Below, in pieces: positions 6,438 to 26,329 of a stretch of DNA of 64,000 bases (position 1 is the first letter of the stretch; each line of letters starts with the position of its first letter). The stretch spans positions 8,370,001 through 8,434,000 of the forward strand of contig NZ_CP023689.1 in assembly GCF_008704715.1 (NCBI RefSeq), read 5' to 3'. A program made the position numbers and the translations under genes. The notes beneath the pieces are model-generated. The model was not told where the DNA came from and did no database searches. It worked only from the letters and a program-made list of their open reading frames with translations. The stretch is from Streptomyces chartreusis (GTDB lineage: Bacteria; Actinomycetota; Actinomycetes; Streptomycetales; Streptomycetaceae).

Positions 6438-7880
6438 TCAGAGGATGGCCCCGGGCGTGTAACCGGCGGCCTCCGGGCGCTGCTTCACGATCTCCTCGAT
6501 CCGGCCGACGACCACGCCGACCTGGTCCGCCGCGGCACCCGTGAAGGACAGCTTGTCGGCCATCAGCGCGTCCAGCCCGGCACGGTCCAGCGGGATCCGC
6601 TCGTCGGCGGCCAGCTTGTCGAGCAGCTCGTTGCGCTCGGCACCCTGCTCGCGCATCGCCAGCGCGGAGGCGACGGCGTTCTCCTTGATCGCCTCGTGCG
6701 CGACCTCACGGCCGACGCCCGCGCGCACCGCGCCCATCAGCACCTTGGTGGTGGCGAGGAAGGGGAGGTAGCGGTCCAGCTCGCGGGCCACGACGGCCGG
6801 GAACGCCCCGAACTCGTCCAGCACCGTCAGGAACGTCTCCAGCAGGCCGTCCAGCGCGAAGAACGCGTCCGGCAGCGCGACCCGGCGCACCACCGAGCAG
6901 GACACGTCGCCCTCGTTCCACTGGTCGCCCGCCAGCTCGCCGGTCATCGAGGCGTAGCCGCGCAGGATGACCATGAGGCCGTTGACGCGCTCGCACGACC
7001 GCGTGTTCATCTTGTGCGGCATCGCGGAGGAGCCGACCTGGCCCGGCTTGAAGCCCTCGGTGACCAGCTCGTGCCCGGCCATCAGCCGGACCGTCTTGGC
7101 CAGCGAGGACGGCGCCGCCGCCAGCTGCACCAGCGCGGTCACGACCTCGTAGTCCAGCGAGCGCGGGTAGACCTGGCCGACCGAGGTGAACGCCTGCGAG
7201 AAGCCCAGGTGCCGGGCGATTCGGTCCTCCAGCTCGGCGAGCTTCGAGGCGTCCCCGCCCAGCAGGTCCAGCATGTCCTGTGCCGTGCCGACCGGGCCCT
7301 TGATGCCGCGCAGCGGGTAGCGGGCAAGCAGCTCCTCGACCCGGCCGTACGCCACGAGCAGCTCGTCGGCGGCGGTCGCGAACCGCTTGCCCAGCGTCGT
7401 GGCCTGCGCGGCGACGTTGTGCGAGCGGCCGGCCATGACCAGCTCGCCGTACTCGCCTGCCAGCTTGCCGAGGCGCGCCAGCACGGCCACCGTACGGTCG
7501 CGCACCAGCTCCAGCGAGAGCCGGACCTGGAGCTGCTCGACGTTCTCCGTGAGGTCGCGGGACGTCATGCCCTTGTGGACGTGCTCGTGCCCGGCGAGGT
7601 CGTTGAACTCCTCGATCCGCGCCTTCACGTCGTGCCGCGTGACCTTCTCGCGCTCGGCGATCGAGGCCAGGTCGACGGTGTCGAGGACGCGCTCGTAGTC
7701 GGCGATCGCCTCGTCCGGCACCTCGATGCCGAGGTCCTTCTGGGCCCGCAGTACGGCGAGCCAGAGCCGGCGCTCGAGCTTCACCTTCTCCTCGGGGGAC
7801 CAGAGCGTGGCGAGCTCGGTGGAGGCGTAGCGTCCGGCGAGGACGTTCGGGATGCGGGGCTTGGCGGGCGCAGAAGTCAC
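6438..7880 (-). CDS. purB: Adenylosuccinate lyase
   Basis: 480-residue fumarase/aspartase-superfamily lyase. The family signature appears as 'GSSAMPHKMNTRSCE', and the conserved 'MTSRDLTEN' and 'GRSHNVAAQATTLGKRFA' (catalytic His region) are present. It cleaves SAICAR and adenylosuccinate with release of fumarate, acting twice in purine synthesis. Start is GTG at 7880. No other pur genes are adjacent, which is usual for this locus in Streptomyces. Confidence 0.95.
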   Translation of the reverse strand: MTSAPAKPRIPNVLAGRYASTELATLWSPEEKVKLERRLWLAVLRAQKDLGIEVPDEAIADYERVLDTVDLASIAEREKVTRHDVKARIEEFNDLAGHEHVHKGMTSRDLTENVEQLQVRLSLELVRDRTVAVLARLGKLAGEYGELVMAGRSHNVAAQATTLGKRFATAADELLVAYGRVEELLARYPLRGIKGPVGTAQDMLDLLGGDASKLAELEDRIARHLGFSQAFTSVGQVYPRSLDYEVVTALVQLAAAPSSLAKTVRLMAGHELVTEGFKPGQVGSSAMPHKMNTRSCERVNGLMVILRGYASMTGELAGDQWNEGDVSCSVVRRVALPDAFFALDGLLETFLTVLDEFGAFPAVVARELDRYLPFLATTKVLMGAVRAGVGREVAHEAIKENAVASALAMREQGAERNELLDKLAADERIPLDRAGLDALMADKLSFTGAAADQVGVVVGRIEEIVKQRPEAAGYTPGAIL

Positions 7881-8194
7881 GTGTACGGAGTTTACCCGGC
7901 GTCCTGCGGGCCCCCGACGGAGCGGCCCAGGTCAGCGATGCTCCCCGTGCGGCCGTCGCCCCGGTCCGCGAGACGGACGGTATCGGCGCGGGCGATCGGG
8001 TGAATTCCCAGTACATCGACGCGTCCCGGTTTCCTGGGGCCTCCACATTTCGTTCATAGTCTGCAAGTCGTGGCGAGTTTGAGCGCGCGGCATCCCGGCT
8101 CCTCCCACGACCTAGCCGATCCCGGCATTCGACGACATCGCGTCAATGACCGGCGTCGGCTTCCCCATTTCTCCCGAGAGAAAGACGAACGACA
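7881..8194. other. Intergenic region between purB and the repeat-protein gene
   Basis: 314 bp between divergent genes, so it must hold both promoters. It has a lower-GC stretch (about 8035-8200), as expected for the repeat-protein promoter and leader. I see no convincing gene, riboswitch or strong hairpin. The ribosome-binding site before ATG 8195 is weak (GAGAAAG). Confidence 0.4.
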
Positions 8195-9250
8195 ATGCGA
8201 CAGGCTCTGACCAGGGGATTGATCGCGGCCGCCGCCGCGACGAGCGCCCTGTCCCTGTACGGCACAGGCGCGTCCGCCGCCCCACTCGTGCAGGGAGCCG
8301 TGGCGAAATCCGCCGCCGCACTGCCGGGCCATTCGGATCCCTGGGACTCGGACGGGCTGAACGAGCAGCTGGACGAGAAAATCGGCAACATGCACGAGAA
8401 ATTCGGCGAGGCGCAGGACCAATTCCAGGAGGTGCAGAAGAAGCTCGACAACCTGGATCTGCCTCGGCCCACCTCCAGCGAGACGTCGGGTCACGGCAAC
8501 TCCGGCTACGGCACCGACGCGCCGAGCTCCGAGGGATACGGCTCCGAGAAGCCGGCCGACCACGGGTACGGCTACGGCAGCGAGAAGCCGACCGACCACG
8601 GCTATGGCTACGGCAGCGAGAAGCCCAAGGACCACGGGTACGGCTCCGAGAAGCCGAAGGACCACGGCTACGGCTCCGAGAAGCCGGCCGACCACGGGTA
8701 CGGCTACGGCAGCGAGAAGCCCAAGGACCACGGGTACGGCTCCGAGAAGCCGACCGACCACGGCTATGGCTACGGCTCCGAGAAGCCCAAGGACCACGGC
8801 TACGGCAGCGAGAAGCCGAGCGACCACGGCTACGGCTCCGAGAAGCCCAAGGACCACGGCTACGGCTACGGCAGCGACAAGCCGAGCGACCACGGGTACG
8901 GGCACGACAAGCCCGGCGACCACGGTTACGGAAACGACCACGGCTACGGGGACGACCACGGCTACGGGGACGACCACGGCTACGGGGACGACCACGGCTA
9001 CGGGGACGACCACGGCTACGGGGACGACCACGGCTACGGGGACGACCACGAGTGCGGCTACGGAGACGACCACGGCCACGGCTGTGACGGGCCGGACAAG
9101 AGGGGGCCGGGCAAGCCGGGCCACCCCCACATGCCCGACACGGGCATCGGAACCGAGGGCGTCATCGGCGGCATCGCCGCCAGCGGTGCGCTGCTCGTCG
9201 CCGGCACCGTCCTGTACCGGCGCAGCCGGGCCACGTCCCGTCAGTCGTAG
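8195..9250 (+). CDS. Secreted His/Gly/Tyr-rich repeat protein with sortase-like C-terminal anchor
   Basis: 351 residues in clear modules. A signal peptide occupies 1-28 (cleavage near 'GASA-AP'). Residues about 55-90 form a charged amphipathic helix ('LDEKIGNMHEKFGEAQDQF'). Residues about 113-297 are low complexity: twelve KPxDHGYG-type units, then GYGNDH, six perfect GYGDDH units and a Cys-bearing 'ECGYGDDHGHGC' cap. The end has an LPxTG-like MPDTG (313-317), a hydrophobic helix (about 324-342) and an RRSR tail, the layout of a sortase substrate. Dense DH pairs suggest metal binding; this is inference. Gly/Tyr repeats could also be structural, as in wall or sheath proteins. I know no described family. 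Confidence 0.85.
   Translation: MRQALTRGLIAAAAATSALSLYGTGASAAPLVQGAVAKSAAALPGHSDPWDSDGLNEQLDEKIGNMHEKFGEAQDQFQEVQKKLDNLDLPRPTSSETSGHGNSGYGTDAPSSEGYGSEKPADHGYGYGSEKPTDHGYGYGSEKPKDHGYGSEKPKDHGYGSEKPADHGYGYGSEKPKDHGYGSEKPTDHGYGYGSEKPKDHGYGSEKPSDHGYGSEKPKDHGYGYGSDKPSDHGYGHDKPGDHGYGNDHGYGDDHGYGDDHGYGDDHGYGDDHGYGDDHGYGDDHECGYGDDHGHGCDGPDKRGPGKPGHPHMPDTGIGTEGVIGGIAASGALLVAGTVLYRRSRATSRQS
8531..9083 (+). repeat. Coding tandem repeats (KPxDHGYG and GYGDDH)
   Basis: The second half (8942-9049) is six identical 18-bp copies reading GYGDDH. The first half is a degenerate mix of SEKPxDHGYG units with and without an extra GYG. Identical neighbouring copies at the DNA level suggest recent expansion by slippage or unequal exchange, so copy number probably varies between strains. 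Confidence 0.9.
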
Positions 9251-9308: not shown

Positions 9309-9338
9309 GCGTAGGCCCGGGATCCTGCGGGCCTACGC
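9309..9338. terminator. Terminator hairpin overlapping the SGNH hydrolase stop
   Basis: Arms GCGTAGGCCCG (9309-9319) and CGGGCCTACGC (9328-9338) are perfect 11-bp complements. It lies between convergent genes and can serve both. Confidence 0.7.
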
Positions 9339-10115
9339 CGCCGGGCCCTCGTACGGCAGCAGTTCGGGACGCTTCGCCGGCAGTCCGTCTCCGGAGGAGC
9401 GTCCCGTCAGCCGTCGGCCTATCCAGGGCAGCAGGTACTGACGCGCGAATCGTGCGTCGGTGACCCGCCGCGTCATCCAGCCCGGCGGCACCGTGGCCGG
9501 CATCGGCGTCCGCCACTCGGTGTCCTCGGGGTCGTAGCCCAGGCGCTGCCACACGGCCTCGGCGACCCGGCGGTGGCCCTCGGCCGTCAGATGCAGCCGG
9601 TCCACGTCCCACATGCGGGGGTCGCTGAGTGAGGCGGCGCCGTAGAGGTCGACGACGACCGCGCCGTGCCGCTCGGCCAGCTCTTCGACGCAGACGAACA
9701 GCTCCTCCATGCGCGACCGGAACCGCTCCAGGACCGGGCCCTGGCGACCCGGGCTGCGCATCAGCACCAGTTGCCGGCACGCCGGGGCGAGCTTCTCGAC
9801 GGCCTCTTCCAGCAGGCCGCGCACCCGCCCCATGTCGCACTTGGGGCGCAGGGTGTCGTTGAGGCCGCCGACGAGGGTGATCACATCGGCGTTCATCGCG
9901 GCCGCCACGTCGACCTGTTCCTCGACGATCTGCCCGATCAGCTTCCCGCGGACCGCGAGGTTGGCGTACCGGAAGCCGGGGGTGCGGGCGGCCATCCGGC
10001 CGGCGAGGAGGTCGGCCCAGCCTCGGTAGGAGCCGTCGGGGAGCAGGTCCGACATGCCCTCGGTGAAGGAGTCGCCGACCGCGACCAGGCTGCTGTATGT
10101 GGGGTTCGTCTGCAT
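9333..10115 (-). CDS. SGNH/GDSL-type lipase or esterase
   Basis: 260 residues. The four SGNH blocks are visible: 'VAVGDSFTEGMSD' (nucleophile Ser), Gly in 'ANLAVRGKLIGQ', Asn in 'LVGGLNDTLRP' and the catalytic 'DRLHLTAEGHRRVAE' (Asp/His). No signal peptide, so it is likely cytoplasmic. ATG at 10115 is chosen (first residues MQTNPTYSSLVAVGDS); an upstream GTG at 10184 would add 23 residues without family support. Family members deacylate small esters or glycans; the substrate is unknown. Confidence 0.85.
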   Translation of the reverse strand: MQTNPTYSSLVAVGDSFTEGMSDLLPDGSYRGWADLLAGRMAARTPGFRYANLAVRGKLIGQIVEEQVDVAAAMNADVITLVGGLNDTLRPKCDMGRVRGLLEEAVEKLAPACRQLVLMRSPGRQGPVLERFRSRMEELFVCVEELAERHGAVVVDLYGAASLSDPRMWDVDRLHLTAEGHRRVAEAVWQRLGYDPEDTEWRTPMPATVPPGWMTRRVTDARFARQYLLPWIGRRLTGRSSGDGLPAKRPELLPYEGPAA

Positions 10116-10196
10116 GGCGACAGGAATGGTATCCCGGCTCCATACCCGCCGGTCGGTCGGGCATGAGCCGGGCACACCATCCACTCGGCCCCACCG

Positions 10197-19971: not shown

Positions 19972-22500
19972 GTGGTGACTCCGGTGAACCCCCCACCTCT
20001 TGACCGCACTTCGCCACCGCAGCGCACGGACGCGTGGCGCCAACCGGCCGCCGGCCTCACGGAGGGCGTCCGGGTGCGCGTGCTGCGTGCCGTGTACGGC
20101 GATCGGCGCGCCGCCGCCGAGCTTCTCCCGCGCCTCACCGACCGTCAGCTGACCGGCACCGACCCGCTCCCCACGGAGCCGGCCGAACTCGCCCCGGCCC
20201 TGCTGCGCGAACACCGGGCGGAGATACGCGCGTTGCCGGACGACACCCGCCTCCTGCTGCTCCTCGCCGCGGCCGACCAGTACCCGGTCTCCACCGACGC
20301 CTTCCTGCGCGCCGTCGTCGCGGCCCGTCTCGACACCCGGTGCCTGGACGCCGCCGAGGCGGCCGGGATCGCACACGCCGGAGCGGGCGGGGTGGCGTTC
20401 CGCGACGCGTGGACGCGGATCGCTGCCTACGAGACCGGCACGCCGGCCGACCGCCGCGATGTCCACCGGCTGCTGGCCCGTGTGCTGCGCGGCGAGGGCG
20501 AGACACCGTCGCGCTCCTGGCACCGGGGCGCGGGCGCGCTCGGCCCCAGCGGGCGACTGGCCGCGGAACTCTCCGCCGCGGCGGGCACGGCGGCCGACAC
20601 CGGACGCCTGTCGGTGGCACGGACACTGGCGGAGCGGGCCGCGGCGCTGTGCCCCGACGCCGCCGAACAGCATCGCCTGACGGCCCGAGCCGCCGCCTAC
20701 GCCTGGCGCTCCGGCGACGGTGACCGAGCCCGCCGCCTGGCGTCGAGCGCGACCGACGACGCGCTGAGCGGGGTGCTGGCCCTGCGGGCGGGAAACGCGA
20801 CGGAGGCGTTCGACGCGCTGCTGATCGGGGTGAGTGCCGCGGCGCCGACGTCATCGGACCGGGGTGCCCCGCCCCTCGCCGCCCCGGCTTCGGTCGCCCC
20901 GCGCGCGGTCACTCCGAGCACGTCGCGCACCGCGACCCCGGCCGCCTCACACAGCGTGGCCCCGGCCGACCCGCGCATCACGACCCCGGCCGCCTCGCGC
21001 ACCGCGGCCCCCTCCGACCCGCGCATCTTCACACCGGCCGACCCGCGCACCGCGGCCCCGGCCGCCTCGCGCACCGCGGCCCCCTCCGACCCGCGCACCT
21101 TGACCCCGGCCGACCCACGCGCCGTGACGCCGGCCATCCCGAGCGCCCGCACCTCAGTCACCCCGTCCACCATCACCCCGCCAACCCTCGCCACCCACCT
21201 CCTCGCCCGCGCCACCGAAGCCGCCATCTACACCGGTGATCTGCGCCGACTGCGTGAGGCGGCGAGAGCTGCCGGTCGGCTCGGTGTCGTGGCGCCCGGC
21301 ACGCTGGGCGGGCTGGTGGCCGCGTTCGACGGGCGGTACGCGGACGCGCGTGACCTGCTGAAGTCGGCCGCAGGGCGGTGCGGGCCCGGCGGTGATCCCA
21401 CCGTCCTGATCCACGCCGCGATCGCCGCCCTGCTCCTCGGCGACCACACCCGCGCGGTCACCGCGACGGTCCGCGCGGCCGCCTCCGCCCGGGCGCGGGG
21501 CACCCCGGTGACCGTGCCGCAGGCCATGGAGTTCCGGGCGTACGCCGACTTCTGGACGGGACGCCCCCGGGCCGGCGAGGCCGCCGCGGCGGACGCGCTC
21601 TGGCAGGCCCACGCCACCGGCCAGGACAACGGCGCCTGCCACCTCCAGGCCGCCCTCGCCATGTTCGCGGCGCTGACCGGGGACGCCGACGTCTGCCGTG
21701 AACGGGCGGCGACCGCACGGTCGTACGCCCTGGCGCGTGGCCTGGGCCTGCCCGCCGCCCTCGCCCAATGGGCGCTCGCGTTCCTCGACCTGAGCAGCGG
21801 CCGTTTCGCCGCCGCCGCGGCCCGGCTGCGTGCCCTCGCCGGATTCGGCCCCGGCCACGGCCACCGGGCCATCCGGCACCTGGCCACCCCGCACTACGTG
21901 GAGGCGGCCGTCCGCACCGGCGACACCCGGGTCGCCCGCGTGGCGCACGCCGACTACGAACGCTGGGCCGGCACGGTACTCAGCCCCGACGACCTGGCCC
22001 TCAGCGCCCGCTGCCGAGCCCTGCTCGCGCCCGGCGAGGAGGCCGTGGACCACTACCGCGCGGCGCTCGATCTGCACTCCCGCGGCACCCGCGACTTCGA
22101 ACGCGCCCGCACGGAGCTGCTGTTCGGCAGCGCCCTGCGCCGACTGCGCCGCCGTTCGGAGGCACGCGACCGTCTGCACAGCGCGCTGGAGGCGTTCGAC
22201 TCCTTCGGCGCCCCGCACTGCGCCACCCGGGCCCGCACCGAACTCCGCGCCCTCGGCACCCCGGCGGCCCCGGCCCGCACCGCCCCCGACAGCCCGACCG
22301 CCACCCTCACGGCCCAGCAACTCCTGGTCGCCCGCATGGCCGCCGACGGCGCCACCAACCGCGAGATCGCCGTCCGCCTGGCCCTCAGCCCCCGCACCAT
22401 CGACCACCACCTGCGAGGCGTCTTCACCCGCCTGGGCATCCGCTCGCGCATCGAACTGGTACGCCTCCTCGCCGAGAGCGGCGAGCCCGAGTCCGGCTAG
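19972..22500 (+). CDS. Large LuxR-family regulator without P-loop, with internal 8-residue repeats
   Basis: 842 residues. The end (about 780-840) is a LuxR helix-turn-helix ('[38 protein letters not shown]' in two blocks). The middle and second half are TPR-like alpha-helical repeats ('[17 protein letters not shown]', '[21 protein letters not shown]'). The N-terminus resembles the tail of a LAL-type ATPase ('[22 protein letters not shown]') but has no Walker A or B motif. Residues 314-393 are ten tandem 8-residue units of the type TPADPRTA. Divergent from a secreted lipase, which it may activate. Confidence 0.85.
20911..21150 (+). repeat. Ten in-frame 24-bp tandem repeats in the LuxR gene
   Basis: Ten units of 24 bp encode variants of (T/A)P(A/S)(D/A)(P/S)R-x-x. 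The pairs [16 protein letters not shown] and APSDPR-x-x recur as a higher-order block. The region replaces nothing obvious and looks like a flexible linker between two helical domains. Confidence 0.85.
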
Positions 22501-25110: not shown

Positions 25111-26329
25111 TGGGCGCGAGGTCCGTTCCGGCGCCCCGGCGGCGTACGGCGACCAGGTCGGTGCGCGGCTCGCCGGCCGGAGCGGCAGCGGCGGCGGGCG
25201 TACCGCACACACCGCCCCCCTCGTGCGACCCGCACCCGGCGCCCTCGTGCGACCCGCAGCCCGCGCTGTCGTGCGAACCGCAACCGGCGGCCTCGTGCGA
25301 ACCGCAGCCGCCCCCGGCCGTCTCCGTCCGGTGCTCGGGCAGCGTCACCTGGTCGGTGCCCTCCACCACGAAGCCGGCGTCGGCGATCATCTCCAGGTCG
25401 GCCTTGCCCGCCTGGCCCTCGGTCGTGAGGTAGTCACCGAGGAAGATCGAGTTGGCCAGGTTCAGGGCGAGCGGCTGCATGGTGCGCAGGTGGACCTCGC
25501 GGCCACCGGCGATGCGCACCTCGACGTCCGGGCACACGAACCGAACCATCGCCAGGATCCTGAGGCACCGCTGCGGGGTGAGGTTCCACTCCTTGGCCAG
25601 CGGGGTGCCCTCGACCGGGATCAGGAAGTTGACCGGCACCGAGTCCGGGTCCAGCTCGCGCAGCGAGTAGACGACGTCGACCAGGTCCTCGTCGCTCTCG
25701 CCCATGCCGGCGATGAGACCGGAGCACGCGGACAGCCCGGCCCCGTGCGCCTTCTGCACGGTGTCGACACGGTCGGCGTAGGTGTGCGTGGTCGTGATGT
25801 CCCCGTACGTCCCCTCGGACGTGTTGAGGTTGTGGTTGTACGCGTCGGCGCCAGCGTCGCGCAGCCGCTCCGCCTGGCCGTCGGACAGCAGGCCGAGGCA
25901 GGCGCACACCTCGACGCCCTCGTTCTGGTCCTTGATGGTCCTGATGGTCTCGGAGACCCGGTCCACGTCACGGTCGGTCGGGCCGCGCCCGGACGCCACC
26001 AGACACACCCGCTTGGCGCCACCCGCCAATCCGGCGGCGGCGGCCTGGGAGGCCTGGTCCGGCTTGAGCCAGGTGTACTTCAGGATGCCGGTGGTGGAGC
26101 CGAGGCGCTGCGAACAGTAGGAGCAGTCCTCGGGGCACAGGCCCGACTTCAGGTTGACCAGATAGTTGAGTTTCACCCGTCGGCCGAACCAGTGCCGGCG
26201 CACCTTGCCGGCCGCGGCCACCACATCGAGCAGGTCGTCGTCGGAAGTGGCGAGGACGGCCAAGGCTTCCTCGCGGGTCGGCAGCTCGCGCCGAAGCCCC
26301 TTGTCCACCAGCGTGTTCAGCAGGTCCAT
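25103..26329 (-). CDS. bioB: Biotin synthase with Cys/His repeat tail
   Basis: 408 residues. The radical-SAM cluster is CxxxCxxC in '[13 protein letters not shown]'; the conserved 'LVASGRGP', '[10 protein letters not shown]', '[11 protein letters not shown]' and '[10 protein letters not shown]' (Arg of the auxiliary [2Fe-2S] site) are all present. The core ends near residue 330. Residues 341-372 are four copies of an 8-residue unit GCGSHE(A/G)(A/G), followed by 'GVCG' and a basic tail, which adds about 70 residues to the E. coli-type enzyme. BioB inserts sulfur into dethiobiotin, sacrificing its [2Fe-2S] cluster. First gene of bioBAD, divergent from bioF. Confidence 0.95.
25214..25309 (-). 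repeat. Four 24-bp repeats encoding GCGSHExx in bioB
   Basis: Four contiguous 24-bp units on the minus strand (25286-25309, 25262-25285, 25238-25261, 25214-25237) encode [24 protein letters not shown] and GCGSHEGG. Each unit has one Cys and one His in the same spacing. Confidence 0.9.

Follow-up and report, generated by a model that had tools for sequence, protein, structure and literature searches.

The window, i.e., the whole 64,000-nucleotide stretch of Streptomyces chartreusis DNA that was analyzed, carries a gene whose product combines a signal peptide, a helix, a long GYG repeat, a two-Cys cap, the pentapeptide MPDTG, a membrane helix and a basic tail (Table 1). All of these elements had been named in the original prediction and were confirmed in the translated reading frame. 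The frame opens with an ATG just 3' of the RBS-like GAGAGAAAG, homologs keep both the position of the start codon and the 5' leader, and the 9.9-Mb genome of the strain holds a single copy of the gene. Neither Pfam nor NCBIfam gave a match of the protein above cut-off, and a search of PLSDB with the protein gave no match. A long antisense ORF spans the repeat; since GC-rich repeats often yield such ORFs, it was not counted as a gene. Tandem repeats also occur elsewhere in the window. At 20923-21135, inside the large, regulator-like ORF 19972-22500 on the forward strand, 24/72-bp repeats encode units of the TPADPR / TAAPAAS type and perhaps form a linker between two parts of that protein, and at 25218-25310 a 24-bp unit is repeated 3.9 times with 84% match.

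Table 1 Features at the repeat-protein locus, in positions of the window.
Feature	Position	Strand	Basis
Conserved upstream neighbor, presumably purB	6438..7880	-	named from protein sequence
Promoter box 1, CGATCGGGTGA	7993..8003	+	upstream alignment, pattern scan
Promoter box 2, TCGTTCATAGTCTGCAAGTC, starting 57 nt after the start of box 1	8050..8069	+	
CDS, 351 aa, wall-anchor anatomy	8195..9250	+	ORF list and translation
Signal peptide, MRQxLTRGLIxAAAATSALSLYG type	8195..8278	+	cleavage after ASA inferred
Remnant SAAALPGH, where relatives start the chaplin domain	8279..8335	+	
Amphipathic helix with heptad pattern, candidate coiled coil	8369..8455	+	AlphaFold2, heptad test
Gly-Tyr-rich acidic repeat, EKPxDHGYG(YG) units, then GYGDDH units	8495..9052	+	
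18-bp tandem array, 7.4 copies, 97% match, far above chance	8917..9050	+	
Two-Cys cap, Cys287 and Cys297	9053..9085	+	
Sorting pentapeptide MPDTG, aa 313-317	9131..9145	+	
Membrane helix and basic tail YRRSRATSRQS	9152..9247	+	
Conserved downstream neighbor, presumably an SGNH-type hydrolase	9333..10184	-	named from protein sequence

In a protein search of 199 genomes of the genus, 42 had a match at E<=1e-3, eight of them a strong one (own genome included, E<1e-37). Scanning genome contigs yielded 19 loci, all from Streptomyces, including S. regalis, viridochromogenes, cyaneus, caeruleatus, lanatus, curacoi, bicolor and cyaneochromogenes. The ortholog set studied comprises 18 loci (L001, L010-L016, L060-L066, L068, L070, L072); loci in which the N-terminal profile matches none of the six frames were left out (L020, L023, L026, L028, L031-L033, L035-L038). 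The flanking genes, which we take to be purB and an SGNH hydrolase gene, are conserved. The former lies upstream in all 18 orthologs and the latter downstream in 16, the two exceptions being L014, with a short weak match, and L063, which ends with its contig. Searching 61 genomes with the SGNH protein and evaluating the best 30 loci, we found an empty site in 15, where the purB and SGNH matches lie 82-252 nt apart and the family gene is absent, and an occupied one in four (own included). Two of the remaining loci have a gap of 913 or 1218 nt without the family motif and nine have no purB in the flank. In genome G022 the site is empty and a member of the same clade (L017, see below) is located elsewhere. 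Because of the empty sites in relatives, we read the gene as an insertion at this place.

The fold of the protein was predicted with AlphaFold2 (eight orthologs). The model contains helices at residues 2-21, 55-85 and 320-348, no structure over residues 90-307 (mean pLDDT 44.6, a low value), and no strand anywhere, cross-beta fibers still being compatible with it. In the second helix the ten-residue mean pLDDT is 56-71. Over residues 59-87, hydrophobic residues occupy eight of the nine heptad a/d positions and none of the 20 others. A helix after the signal peptide with such a pattern is present in 17 of the 18 orthologs, scoring above at least 98% of 300 shuffles; only L064 fails. The amphipathic helix proposed earlier is thus supported both by the model and by the heptad pattern. 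Among 17 orthologs (L063 left out; pairs not independent), the median dN/dS is 0.83 for the helix segment (134 pairs), indicating fast evolution, and 0.40 for the N-terminus (136 pairs), indicating constraint.

The repeat that follows is built at two scales, with an array of period 30/66/96 bp at 8503-8931, far above chance, preceding the 18-bp array. Five exact, in-register copies of the 18-bp unit start at 8951, 8969, 8987, 9005 and 9023. As an array this unit was not found in the other 17 ortholog loci, and its 17-bp core, with five occurrences at the window locus, has a single one in L068 and is absent from the remaining 16 loci. This distribution supports a lineage-specific expansion of the unit, and the recent repeat growth that had been proposed is borne out. 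Across the family, the scored repeat stretch ranges from 99 residues in L063 (a partial count, the locus being cut by its contig end, yet included among the 18) and 100 in L016 up to 201 in the window protein, and the order of units differs. Composition is steadier: in all 18 orthologs the repeat contains 16-28% Gly and 11-15% Tyr and carries a net charge of -7 to -24. The earlier suggestion of an extended Gly-Tyr polymer is likewise supported. The variable length and unit order, together with the unstructured model, would also suit a passive stalk, in which the repeat acts only as an entropic spacer and holds out the N-terminal helix, the part that would bind a ligand or surface. However, the Tyr content and acidity kept in all 18 proteins would be needless for a mere spacer, and we consider this explanation rather unlikely.

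The density of Asp-His pairs had led the original prediction to surface metal binding, and the window protein taken by itself could be read as a surface metal binder or store for Zn, Ni or Cu. Its mature part holds all of the 26 GYG triplets (overlapping ones counted) and of the 27 His, 20 of the latter within aa 101-286. There are 20 Asp-His pairs, the His content of the mature part (8.4%) is the highest among the 18 orthologs, and DH is preserved in the recent 18-bp expansion. Over all orthologs, however, His directly precedes only 101 of 228 GY blocks, ranging from 18 of 21 in the window protein to 1 of 12 in L072 and 1 of 8 in L013; Ser, Asp, Gln and other residues take its place. In the non-syntenic relatives L018, L024 and L073 the repeat is nearly His-free. 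Asp at the preceding position is still common (56% of GY blocks). Conservation of His in homologs, whose absence had been named beforehand as a point of refutation, is thus not found, and since Gly, Tyr and net acidity are conserved but His is not, His turnover among the 18 orthologs rules out metal binding as the conserved function. The two neighbors are not metal genes, and the Zur site that the prediction had suggested looking for was not seen when the window was scanned for a Zur box with as many as 3 mismatches allowed. Judged from sequence, the feature that is kept is the acidic Gly-Tyr chain, with His as an allele-level elaboration, and metal binding or storage as the main function is distinctly unlikely, although this one His-rich allele might bind metal.

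Tyrosine in such a setting has a further possible use. Resilin-type materials provide an analogy for a sheath in which the Tyr residues of GYG units are oxidized to dityrosine and weld the coat together. The presence of Tyr-Gly repeats in 18/18 orthologs would fit this, but neither immediate neighbor is an oxidase, and we regard a cross-linked sheath as highly unlikely.

The C-terminus bears out the predicted wall-anchored anatomy, with MPDTG followed by the membrane helix and basic tail. A sorting signal is present in 17/18 orthologs, the exception being truncated at the end of its contig. Against PF00746 (Gram_pos_anchor) the window protein reaches 10.9 of the 20 bits required, and L024 reaches 21.0; against TIGR01167 the ortholog L012 scores 17.8 with a cut-off of 15.9, and L010 gives no match. 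The own genome holds 11 sortase matches. From this anatomy, we infer that the window protein would be joined to peptidoglycan by sortase.

An N-terminal profile of the family pointed to its relatives. In the own genome it retrieves the gene itself, then chaplins (5e-9, 2e-8 and 7e-4) and then only matches at 0.006 or above, the chaplin matches being favored by two chaplin-bearing rows in the profile. Applied to 121 genomes, it matches in 119 at E<=1e-6. At E<1e-13 there are 48 matches in 48 different genomes, as if each genome held at most one gene of this type. The 103 distinct matches comprise 32 short and 71 long proteins (73 were first classed as long, of which two are really short chaplins). 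The relatives have in common an N-terminal style, MRQxLSRGxxxAAAATSxLSLYGxxAxA, and a C-terminal one, [LM][PA]xTG-membrane helix-YRRxRAxSRR, and their middles are very different.

These middles form a graded series. L086, L110 and L112 carry a pair of chaplin domains and a GYG linker, and one domain with GYG units is found in L030, where the domain is followed by GYGDDHGYGDDE, and in L088. The domains are eroded in L114, L121, L122 and L111, only their first residues are left in L022, L024 and L073, and the window protein has none. Where L030, L086 and L088 carry the intact domain, L022 and L024 have SxxVLSGNTVQ and the window protein has SAAALPGH. The Pfam profile PF03777 (ChpA-C) gives 168 bits for L086, 153 for L110, 87 for L030, 85 for L088, 31 for L114 and 28 for L121. 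L114 and L121 therefore pass the Pfam cut-off as partial domains despite having no intact domain in our count, which demands more than 25 bits against a profile built from 30 short chaplins and in which both are entered with 0 domains. The clade member L024 scores 21.4 bits against PF03777 (cut-off 21), covering profile positions 3-28 of 57, i.e., the first half only; L073 scores 21.0, L022 16.9, and L010 gives no match. The window protein has no PF03777 match up to E 1, i.e., no recognizable chaplin domain, which comprises ~40 hydrophobic residues. It also differs from the definition of the long chaplins ChpA-C, with zero domains instead of two and MPDTG instead of LAxTG.

A tree was built from the 66 proteins that reach 130 aa and whose sorting signal could be read (91 columns from the signal peptide and anchor ends; L063 not included). 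Here the window protein falls into a clade of 17 rows (100/99), which in turn is part of a domain-less clade of 24 rows (100/98). The latter is nested among chaplin-domain-bearing rows, with the root at the canonical long chaplins; of the 63 forks 22 are open, bootstrap values had not stabilized, and L040, a row on a long branch and one of the six forming the outgroup, was placed within the ingroup. The domain state changes at least six times on this tree. A single clade of all domain-less proteins was not rejected by the AU test (p 0.137), and the domain may have been lost once or several times. The Cys pair of the cap is present in 8 of 25 clade members (the window protein, L010, L011, L065, L017, L022, L024 and L073). 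Two domain-less relatives, L117 and L120, have a very long linker of PPTK-type repeats ending in LPPTG.

Among the 66 long relatives, the second position of the sorting signal is A in 17 and P in one of the proteins with at least two domains, A in four, P in nine and S in one of those with one domain, and A in four and P in 30 of those with none. A change from xAxTG to xPxTG tied to domain loss was not significant after correcting for relatedness, and since the supported branches hold just a single independent pair, we claim no causal link between signal and domain.

The original assignment to an unknown family is not borne out. By the N-terminal profile, the graded domain series and the tree, the window protein looks like a member of a chaplin-derived lineage, not itself a chaplin by definition, with the reservation that signal peptides resemble one another by composition, which weakens the inference of relatedness. 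The literature covered, which leaves most subscription papers outside, yielded no paper on a domain-less chaplin or on the GYG repeat.

The upstream region is also shared with chaplin genes. Aligning it revealed two boxes that can be written as CGnTCGRGTGA-57 nt-TCGTTC..GTC, a pattern drawn up after seeing the alignment and looser than a first one, which missed the CATAG form (0/18 orthologs). The two boxes are present in 18/18 orthologs, 7/7 other, non-syntenic clade members and 17/32 short-chaplin genes, where an element like box 2 also occurs, and in one of 46 other long relatives (L121). Within the 310 nt directly preceding each gene, they are not found in the remaining 45 long relatives and 15 short chaplins; since only this stretch was scanned, a long relative gets no credit for a promoter located 5' of the short chaplin gene that precedes it. 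Such an arrangement, in which a short chaplin gene precedes, in the same orientation, the gene of an anchored relative with one or two domains, is seen in L030, L088, L110, L112 and related loci. In L030 and L088 the promoter of the short chaplin matches that of the window gene, and in L110 and L112 a similar one differs slightly in letters or spacing.

In 36 of 43 cases the boxes are spaced by exactly 57 nt. The pattern occurs in none of 14,610 shuffled segments (which keep letter counts, not dinucleotides), and the two strands of the 64-kb window taken together contain it once. Its stricter GGGTGA form occurs once in the whole own genome, at 7993, and the GAGTGA form is absent from it. An extended box 1, CGATCGGGTGAATT, is found with at most one mismatch at four places in the genome, and the reversed control at none. 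In PMC4125116, the 16-bp consensus site for BldM / BldM-WhiI has CGnnCGGGTGA as its right 11 nt, and chaplin and rodlin genes are named as key sigma-BldN targets. Box 1 corresponds to these right 11 nt, and the left half-site is unmatched (PMC4125116). Our literature search found nothing on ECF121 with BldN.

Loss of the domain, and the eroded domains of several relatives, could make the gene a decaying chaplin relic without function, but with the promoter in 18/18, the heptad pattern in 17/18 and the sorting signal in 17/18 orthologs (all those uncut), and with a constrained N-terminus, this is scarcely credible.

The best reading of the locus is a developmentally expressed, sortase-anchored coil with a disordered brush that would be part of the coat of aerial hyphae or spores. 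We hold it reasonably likely that the protein is a long chaplin minus its amyloid domain, having kept promoter, anchor and GYG chain and now carrying a predicted coiled coil. The gene may descend from a short/long chaplin pair, of which it would have been the anchored member. From this ancestor it would have retained a copy of the promoter found in chaplin clusters, a signal peptide of chaplin type, a disordered GYG linker and a sortase signal, which now reads M/LPxTG. The chaplin domain would have been lost, and the gene would have ended up between purB and the SGNH hydrolase gene, with the predicted coiled-coil helix now at the former place of the domain.

Judging by its promoter, the gene would be expressed with the chaplins as aerial hyphae form. 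The protein would then be exported and joined to peptidoglycan by sortase, its Pro-rich part crossing the wall and its acidic Gly-Tyr chain projecting as a flexible, hydrated, self-adhering brush, in which Tyr residues may permit reversible contacts. The distal helix might oligomerize or bind a partner in the sheath, so that coils tie the ends of the brush. The protein thus probably belongs to the aerial coat, with metal binding not being its primary role. A bolder proposal, which we put forward only tentatively, is that in a Streptomyces lineage a coiled coil took the place of the amyloid module in an anchored chaplin, with promoter and wall anchor retained, and that the lineage thereby gained a second, non-amyloid coat polymer, a Tyr-Gly brush tied by coils. 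If true, such a brush might add to the texture of the spore surface. A link to spiny or hairy spores is speculation, and our literature search found no paper on it.

Chaplins are a well-studied functional amyloid, and a relative that has the expression signal and the anchor but not the amyloid fold would show which parts of the coat are replaceable. It would also provide a natural test of whether the job of long chaplins is amyloid seeding or the anchoring of a flexible polymer. The chaplin-cluster promoter signature can serve in searches for additional coat genes.

Among known systems, the long chaplins ChpA-C of Streptomyces (PF03777) come closest, sharing with the window protein the style of the signal peptide, the anchor with membrane helix and basic tail, and a Gly-rich linker; related proteins with intact domains have the same kind of GYG linker. 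In contrast to ChpA-C, the window protein has no chaplin domain, MPDTG in place of LAxTG, a predicted coiled-coil helix and a repeat that is 100-200 residues long in the family. Short chaplins consist of one chaplin domain and have no anchor, unlike the window protein, and 17/32 of their genes have the same two-box promoter with ~57-nt spacing. The sequence likeness of box 1 to BldM / BldM-WhiI sites (PMC4125116) extends to the right 11 nt, and the left half-site differs. CwpA and CwpB of Actinoplanes are sortase-anchored, partly disordered proteins without a chaplin domain that act in morphogenesis (PMC13251363), and SspA of Actinoplanes is a sortase-anchored spore-surface protein of 191 aa with a mature part predicted to be disordered, which is needed for rigid sporangia (PMC13293333). 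CwpA and CwpB are hydrophobic, unlike the window protein, and both they and SspA are likened to it by their published descriptions. On these descriptions, SspA (PMC13293333) and CwpA/CwpB (PMC13251363) are precedents for disordered, sortase-anchored proteins that shape actinomycete surfaces.
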